Origin: Brachyspira sp.
GTDB taxonomy: Bacteria > Spirochaetota > Brachyspiria > Brachyspirales > Brachyspiraceae
Reading direction: 5' to 3'
Assembly: GCF_029258575.1 (NCBI RefSeq)
Contig: NZ_JARHYI010000143.1
Location: 1 to 64,000 of the forward strand
DNA length: 64,000 bases
The position numbers were made by a program, and so were the translations under genes. Position 1 is the stretch's first letter. Each line of letters starts with the position of its first letter. The notes beneath the pieces were generated by a model that searched no databases, had not been told where the DNA came from, and saw only the letters and a program-made list of their open reading frames with translations. Below are positions 44,461-45,714 of this stretch, piece by piece.

Positions 44461-44552
44461 TATTTTTTGATAAAAAATTAAAATTACTGTTGTAAATAAT
44501 AGATATATATTATTAAGTATACGATTATAAATTTTTAGGAGTTATAAAATAA

Positions 44553-44606
44553 ATGAAAGCAATCATCATTATGAATAGAATGCAAATGCCTATGTTGAAT
44601 AAATAA
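44553..44606 (+). CDS. putative Met-rich leader peptide
   Basis: A 17-codon ORF, MKAIIIMNRMQMPMLNK, with AGGAG 11 nt upstream and a stop followed 4 nt later by a hairpin with a T-run. Five of 17 residues are Met, four of them within eight codons. It directly precedes remnants of two methionine-synthesis genes (metY, metX). This is the classic layout of a transcription-attenuation leader peptide, here sensing Met-tRNA. The reading is inferred from architecture alone; the downstream genes are dead in this genome. Confidence 0.45.
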   Translation: MKAIIIMNRMQMPMLNK

Positions 44607-44640
44607 TGATAACTATTTAGTATAGTTTATTTTTTATTTT
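44565..44640 (+). promoter_or_regulatory. attenuator-like hairpins at the methionine locus
   Basis: Two tandem stems. ATCATTAT (44565) pairs with ATAATGAT (44603-44610), enclosing the Met codons of the leader ORF. Immediately after, AACTAT (44611) pairs with ATAGTT (44622-44627) over a 5-nt loop, followed by TATTTTTTATTTTTG. The second stem plus T-run looks like a weak intrinsic terminator. An anti-terminator pairing was not found by eye. Confidence 0.4.
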
Positions 44641-44699
44641 TGAACTTTCAATCCATCAAAATTATTTTGGCGTATATTGTATATTCAAGAAGATATAAA

Positions 44700-45086
44700 A
44701 TGAAAATTTGAAACTTTAGATGCTCATACAAAACAGCAGAATTTTAACGATGCTTTTGGAAGCAGAGATTACCTGTTTACAAAACAACATCATACCTTCT
44801 TCAAACTATAAAACATAGTGCTGATACAGTAATAAATTCTCTCACAAAATGGATTTGAGAACATAGAAGTGCAATAGAAGGAATAATCACAGATTCTGGT
44901 AATTTCAATTGGCAGAGCAATAAGTTTCCATTATTTTCTAAACCAGATTCCAATTATCATGGTATTCGCTGGGCTTAAGATTTATCTGATAAATTTAAGA
45001 GTATTGCATTAAGACTTAGATGGGAGTTATTTATTGATATAGATAATTTAGATATAAAAGAAAATAATAAAAATAAAGAGAAATAA
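44700..45086 (+). pseudogene. metY: remnant of O-acetylhomoserine sulfhydrylase (MetY)
   Basis: Translated pieces match the PLP enzyme that makes homocysteine from O-acetylhomoserine and sulfide. Near 44706 the frame reads KFETLDAHTKQQ (family KFETLQLHAGQ). Around 44815-44990 it reads HSADTVINSLTKWI, including the PLP Lys, then after a stop EHRSAIEGIITDSGNFNW and KPDSNYHGIRWA, then another stop, DLSDKFKSIALRLRWELF. Stops, frameshifts and large deletions mean the gene is dead. It is followed directly by a metX remnant. Confidence 0.85.
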
Positions 45087-45098
45087 AAAATTTTAATT

Positions 45099-45640
45099 TA
45101 CAAATGATGCAAGTATAGGTGTATTAACTATAGCATACACCATAAATGAAAATTTATAAAAAAACTTCATTGTGTTATAGACTACTCTATGGGAGGAATG
45201 CAGGCTTTGCAATGTACTGACTTATGTACTAATATAGGAAAAAGCAATTATAATAGAAAGTCCTATGGGGTATTCTCCTATGCAAATAGGCAAATAGCTT
45301 TAAATGAAATAGTAAGGCAGGTAATAACAGAAGACAATAAATGGTATGTCTAGTCATGCTTTGGCTAGAATGCTTGGACATATTACATATATGAATGAAT
45401 AATTATGAAGCAGAAATTCAGAAGAAAAATAAAAAAAGCTTTGAAATATTTTACTCCTTCTTTTGAAGTAGAAAATTATCTGCATTATAAAAATGGAGAA
45501 AAATTCACAGAAAATTTGATACCAATAACTTTTTTATATCTCACTAAAGCTATGGATTTTTTGATGTTAAAGATGATATAAAAAAGATAAAGACAAGAAA
45601 GAATATAGAATTAGAAAAAGTTCTTAATGATTTTTTATAA
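45099..45640 (+). pseudogene. metX: remnant of homoserine O-acetyltransferase (MetX)
   Basis: Fragments in changing frames match MetX, which acetylates homoserine for methionine synthesis. They include VLTIAYTINENL (N-terminal strand), YSMGGMQALQ (the GGSMGGMQALQW nucleophile-region motif, the nucleophile itself lost upstream), SPMQI plus NEIVRQVI, LARMLGHITYMNE (family GHITYLS), and FEVENYLHYKNGEKF ... YLYLTKAMDFF near the C-terminus. Multiple stops and deletions show loss of function. It ends at a TAA at 45638 and is followed by a terminator-like hairpin. Confidence 0.87.
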
Positions 45641-45672
45641 AAAAATACTGAACAAACAAAATATATAAAAAA

Positions 45673-45714
45673 CTTTTTATCATATTAATTTTTCATAAAA
45701 AGACTTGTTTTTTT
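45673..45714 (+). terminator. intrinsic terminator after the metX remnant
   Basis: CTTTTTAT and ATAAAAAG form an 8-bp stem with a 14-nt loop, followed by CTTGTTTTTTTATG. It survives as the end of the former metY-metX transcript, and precedes the LiaF-like gene. Confidence 0.55.

Follow-up and report, generated by a model that had tools for sequence, protein, structure and literature searches.

Remnant of a Met-codon leader before decayed metY-metX in one Brachyspira genome, and its intact counterparts as putative attenuators in the genus

The leader remnant and its neighbourhood

The window is the whole 64,000-nucleotide stretch of Brachyspira sp. DNA (genome G000) that was analysed. An intact yifB/comM-like ATPase gene is the upstream neighbour of a short, Met-rich leader ORF, which is followed by remnants of metY and metX. 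The closest relative, G021, shares this gene order, with the end of a yifB-like gene, the leader, and metY-metX. The features are as follows, where regions 1 to 4 are the pairing segments of the intact element described in the next section and R1 is a covariance model built from 22 metYX leaders, the window copy excluded.

44484-44528, plus strand: decayed promoter region, TTGTAA against TTGACA in relatives, the well-spaced -10 gone (pairwise alignment with G021)
44526-44682, plus strand: remains of the Met leader attenuator, over the whole extent of the match to model R1 (55.3 bits, E = 3.8e-6)
44537-44541, plus strand: Shine-Dalgarno AGGAG of the leader ORF, from sequence and at the same place in most relatives
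44553-44606, plus strand: remnant of the leader ORF, MKAIIIMNRMQMPMLNK, made shorter than in G021 by a frame change and the loss of 8 nt (21-27 codons in relatives)
44565-44572, plus strand: region 1 relic AUCAUUAU, pairing with 44603-44610 as protector helix 1:2, conserved in relatives
44608-44615, plus strand: region 2 relic, the 5' arm of the antiterminator, GATAACTA against GATGGCTG in relatives
44611-44627, plus strand: 6-bp stem with T-run from the preliminary description (dG -2.3 kcal/mol), its T-rich stretch being the spacer between regions 2 and 3
44649-44672, plus strand: terminator relic, regions 3 and 4, CAATCCATCAAAATTATTTTGGCG, aligned with AGCCGTCAAAGTAATTTTGACGGCTTTTTTT of G021
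44700-45090 (end approximate), plus strand: metY pseudogene remnant (O-acetylhomoserine sulfhydrylase), frameshifted and truncated, with a 76% identity segment at 44784-45023 containing internal stops
45155-45685 (ends approximate), plus strand: metX pseudogene remnant (homoserine O-acetyltransferase), no MetX being found in G000 at E <= 1e-30

The leader ORF begins with ATG at 44553 and runs for 17 codons to a TAA stop at 44604-44606. Counting the start codon it has five Met, four of which fall inside eight codons, an enrichment with a binomial P of 4e-4 against the window Met frequency of 2.3%. Among 1721 ORFs of 10-40 codons taken from both strands of the whole window, nested starts included, this is the only one to combine a Shine-Dalgarno-like site with at least four internal Met within eight codons. 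The preliminary description had reported this ORF, its Met content and its ribosome-binding site ahead of metY-metX remnants; all were found where it placed them, and the remnants are genuine.

The same description proposed two tandem stems, of which the second, with its T-run, was taken as a terminator. Both can pair, but neither is stronger than dinucleotide shuffles (z = 0.05 for 44565-44572:44603-44610 and -0.31 for the second, in the stretch 44603-44640). We reject the T-run stem at 44611-44627 as a terminator, since its strength is at the level of shuffles and no such stem formed at the homologous stretch in the seven intact leaders folded; it is formed by the decayed region 2 together with the U-rich spacer. 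The terminator had thus been assigned to the wrong stem. Its true relic at 44649-44672 lies 3' of the interval originally described and has lost its 3' half, with GGCG kept and the relatives' 3' GCTTTTTT deleted in the alignment with G021. The energy of the terminator stem is -16.4 kcal/mol in G021 versus -1.6 kcal/mol in the window.

Missing from the window relative to G021 are TTGACA, 8 nt from the leader ORF, region 2, the 3' half of the terminator, and the start of metY. With region 2 mutated and half of the terminator deleted, it has neither a working antiterminator nor a working terminator and falls outside the set of intact elements. The window copy is a decayed remnant, and it probably has no regulatory role left. 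Operon and attenuator evidently decayed together here, leaving over the ORF and helix 1:2, and the window illustrates how a regulator can be lost along with its operon. Two genomes of the genus are missing a MetX hit, G000 with its dead element and G019, which is without MetY and MetX and in which R1 found no element. G000 retains metN, which lacks this attenuator element, and presumably depends on Met uptake.

The intact element in other Brachyspira genomes

Our genus sample comprised 26 Brachyspira genomes, G000 and 25 others. Intact metY followed by metX is present in 22 of these 25 (with a gap of 80 nt in B. innocens), and all 22 carry a leader ORF and terminator 120-200 nt before metY. 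A promoter is likewise present in 22/22, consisting of TTGACA or TTGAAA and then a TATAAT-like box, in the form TTGACA-N17/18-TATAAT. The leader ORFs are Met-rich, 21-27 codons long, and usually have an AGGA-type ribosome-binding site. Examples are MKTIIVMNKMFCLMQMCMFNNDGCQ in B. hampsonii (G006), MKSIIVMNQMLCLMQMRMFNNDGCII in B. innocens (G008), and MNNAVIINMLCLMQMQKIITAA in B. pilosicoli T010 (G013). The core L-C-L-M-Q-M is found in 21 of the 22, with HCLMQM and FCLMQM occurring as first-position variants, and the intrinsic terminator reads AGCCGTCAAA...TTTGGCGGCTTTTTT. The preliminary description had made its attenuator depend on relatives with intact metYX having a Met-rich ORF and a hairpin at this place, and every one of the 22 has both.

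Searching the genus with R1 showed that the element is not confined to metYX. It also precedes a lone metX in G001 and G003, two deep lineages whose leaders have a TTG start and read ...FSMMQMRFEDGCIV. A second copy stands before metN and then metI in G002 (B. alvinipulli), G020, and G018, with leader VNFLMIVINMLCKSMQMTMVCSIDGCEV (L083, L084, L085); MetN was assigned by its best hit, TIGR02314, which lies below the curated cut-off, and MetI by reading of the sequence. This metN-metI copy is confined to one clade, the other 21 metN loci checked being without the element, and in its 3' part the metN element is similar to that clade's metYX element, which makes copying of the leader likely. The intact copies total 27, from 22 metYX, two metX, and three metN loci.

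Across 296 Spirochaetota genomes R1 gave merely two weak matches outside Brachyspira (G131 and G081), which we rejected as Met leaders because each is a plain hairpin with a T-run and no Met-rich ORF. No convincing Met-rich leader was found before metX at 30 other Spirochaetota loci (a few of the longest ORFs there may not be metX), and none before five MetY relatives outside the genus or before the MetY homologs of the Brachyspiraceae genera g2 and g3. Another weak model match, L086 (G006:C4, about 1705326-1705490), is a tandem array of nearly identical hairpin units, ATCCGTCAAGTAAACTTAACGGAT, separated by AATTTTTATTTTG spacers, and is unrelated to Met leaders.

Two side observations concern the metY and metX genes themselves. 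About 200 nt upstream of a second, distant metY homolog, L165 (G001, minus strand) and L166 (G003, plus strand) have a different leader ORF with a Shine-Dalgarno site. These ORFs close on three tandem Met codons (MIKNLFNLSNIASCKFYFSFAFSMMMRVVAR; MSSFISLNLLNNASCVFSFSLSMMMRVCAR) directly followed by a GCGCG...GCGCGC hairpin, and they may be Met leaders of a different, independent design. The presence of metY and metX in nearly all Brachyspira genomes searched also contrasts with the B. hyodysenteriae genome paper, the first of the genus, which reported no methionine biosynthesis genes (PMC2650404).

Over the 27 loci the leader ORFs span 21-30 codons, with a clear Shine-Dalgarno site in most. Region 2, at the end of the ORF, is GAUGGCUG, UACGGCUG, or GACGGCUG; region 3 is (C/A)AGCCGUCA; and region 4 is GGCGGCU or GACGGCU followed by six or more U. 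Pairing of 2:3 is the predicted antiterminator and pairing of 3:4 the predicted strong terminator, each at about -12 to -16 kcal/mol and mutually exclusive because both use region 3. An antiterminator, which the preliminary description had failed to find, is thus present in relatives as GAUGGCUG:CAGCCGUC. Its six core pairs occur in all rows, and 91% of cells are paired over the whole helix. The terminator, between leader and first gene, has an 8-12 bp stem and then T6 in 27/27. The Met codons lie inside helix 1:2, CAUCGUUAU:AUAAUGAUG. Minimum-energy folds of the B. pilosicoli-like group pair AUGCAG with CUGCAU instead.

The spacing of codons is equally regular. In all 27 copies the nearest upstream in-frame Met codon begins 12, 14, 15, or 17 nt before region 2, a measurement that in G018, G020, and G002 leaves out two ATG codons overlapping region 2, and the stop codon begins 2-7 nt past region 2. 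With such a Met codon in its A site, a ribosome would be expected to shield the RNA roughly up to region 2, and one at the stop codon would cover region 2. This spacing of Met and stop codons is the geometry of trp/his-type ribosome attenuation. The metYX leaders of G018, G020, and G002 (L071-L073) have a one-base frame difference through which region 2 reads ...FIMMAV*, placing two Met codons inside the antiterminator arm. At this point the RNA is kept and the peptide is not.

Intact leaders have 2-6 internal Met upstream of region 2, versus the 2.3% background. This enrichment is individually significant in most copies, with P ~1e-4 in leaders with five Met and 9e-6 in the G018 metN leader. 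The weakest leaders (G012, G017, G020, and G002, with Met codons upstream of region 2 down to 2) reach 0.05-0.07. Taken singly, some leaders show only weak enrichment, so the argument depends on conservation combined with geometry. Upstream of region 2 there is coding constraint, with pS 0.46 versus pN 0.24 among 15 representative leaders, the pairs of which are not independent. A shuffle test of the region 2:3 pairing gave 1-52 of 2000 shuffles for seven leaders, at a G-C threshold that was too stringent for leaders of the G006/G021 type.

Support from compensatory covariation is thin. In helix 1:2, where 97.7% of cells are paired, one pair changes from A-U to G-C in five genomes, and in 2:3 and 3:4 no pair is changed on both sides; pairing in slid controls is far lower. 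Helices 2:3 and 3:4 hardly vary, so covariation speaks neither for nor against them, and this near-invariance would be explained by the triple constraint on region 3. Of the alternative stems with covariation that the preliminary description had suggested looking for in relatives, the stems are there as 2:3 and 3:4, and the double change is restricted to the one pair of helix 1:2.

Proposed mechanism and alternative explanations

The relatives strongly support the presence of a Met-codon leader attenuator at a methionine locus, on a basis of anatomy, conservation, gene context, spacing, and decay that is read from the sequences themselves. The intact Brachyspira element is probably a transcription attenuator that works through the ribosome, as in trp and his, and reads Met. 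We infer that Met-tRNA charging is the signal and that the position of the ribosome is coupled to termination.

RNA polymerase would start at the promoter and a ribosome would begin translating the leader ORF. A shortage of elongator Met-tRNA would be expected to stall that ribosome at the Met codons, where it would cover region 1 and end just before region 2; region 2 would then pair with region 3 as the antiterminator, and metY-metX, metX, or metN-metI would be transcribed. With ample Met-tRNA the ribosome would reach the stop codon and cover region 2, 3:4 would pair, and transcription would end at the U-run. If there is no translation, helix 1:2 is expected to form and the terminator to win. 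Starvation for Met could blunt the response because the fMet needed for leader initiation is also limited, and failure to initiate would again lead to helix 1:2 and a winning terminator. SAM-I (RF00162) and T-box (RF00230) elements were found by covariance model in 0/26 Brachyspira genomes, with positive controls. We consider it likely that the genus has a small Met regulon (metY-metX, lone metX, and in one clade MetN-MetI) in which Met-codon attenuation replaces the SAM riboswitch and T-box.

Cysteine is mildly enriched in the leaders (L058-L085), and several have 2-3 Cys upstream of region 2 (P ~0.01), most in the G018 metN leader (8e-4). This could indicate a dual sulfur sensor reading both Met and Cys codons, a possibility largely compatible with Met-reading attenuation, and Cys and Met likewise occur together in the Streptomyces lividans metL candidate (PMC8079986). 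The metX leaders, however, are without Cys upstream of region 2, and about half of the copies have one Cys only, inside the UUUGC hairpin, which makes dual sensing unlikely.

The LCLMQM core, conserved in most metYX leaders, with MQM in 26/27, and the excess of pS over pN would also be expected of an arrest peptide, in which free methionine or SAM is detected by the nascent LCLMQM chain inside the ribosome, whose stalling then operates the same RNA switch. Nascent-peptide sensing of this kind is known from TnaC. Between metYX, metX, and metN leaders, however, the N-terminal half and the flanks of MQM vary while the Met codons and their spacing stay, and part of the conservation is accounted for by a small RNA hairpin, UUUGC/GCAAA, formed by the LC and QM codons. 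Arrest induced by Met would additionally give antitermination when Met is plentiful, which is the wrong sign for biosynthesis, and we regard this explanation as quite improbable.

Since Met genes are commonly under riboswitch control and a terminator is present, a metabolite riboswitch for SAM or Met, for which translation would be unneeded, was also considered. This is highly improbable. Rfam gave zero gathering hits on the window, and five intact loci matched no Rfam family, with three below-threshold matches at E 0.3-0.7. The genus has no SAM-I, the leaders contain no conserved aptamer besides the coding stem, and the ORF is under coding constraint. Finally, that the window ORF and hairpins arose by chance in an AT-rich intergenic relic, as the shuffle-level stems might suggest, is refuted by the relatives, given the match to the independent model R1 (E = 3.8e-6) and a position and synteny as in G021.

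Comparison with known systems

SAM-I (S-box) and T-box elements in Firmicutes share terminator-based control of Met genes, but the Brachyspira element is without an aptamer or a tRNA-binding leader. The 5'UTR of the Xanthomonas campestris met operon similarly mediates methionine feedback on met genes, but it acts mainly at translation, and no leader peptide was described (PMC6230763). A survey of actinobacteria detected no conserved RNA element upstream of their methionine operons (PMC1262725). In S. lividans, a Met leader peptide, metL, has been proposed before metNIQ (PMC8079986, Table 4). It differs from the Brachyspira leaders in being known from a single genome, with two internal Met in 29 codons, no typical terminator, and unclear termination, and has no evident sequence resemblance to them; as a Met-leader candidate it is weak. 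This was the only published Met leader peptide found in a search that covered few subscription papers, and an earlier report may exist. Met specificity of leader attenuation is nearly absent from the literature found, while the kind of attenuator itself is classical.

That classical kind is represented by the leader-peptide attenuators of trp, his, leu, thr, and phe in enterobacteria. Like these, the Brachyspira element has a short translated leader rich in codons for the product, regions 1-4, a U-run terminator, and a stop codon beside region 2. Attenuators of the enterobacterial type are discussed in PMC1262725 and PMC2965389. If the proposed attenuation is true, this spirochete genus would provide the first well-supported Met leader attenuator, one working although the starved amino acid also starts the leader, and a regulatory handle on sulfur amino acid metabolism in gut spirochetes. 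The absence of Met from the classical list is plausibly due to the need of every leader for fMet to start, a question that a conserved Met version makes testable. The Brachyspira element differs from the enterobacterial attenuators in reading Met codons, so that its cognate amino acid is the start residue too, and in its targets, which are metY-metX of direct sulfhydrylation and, in some species, Met uptake.
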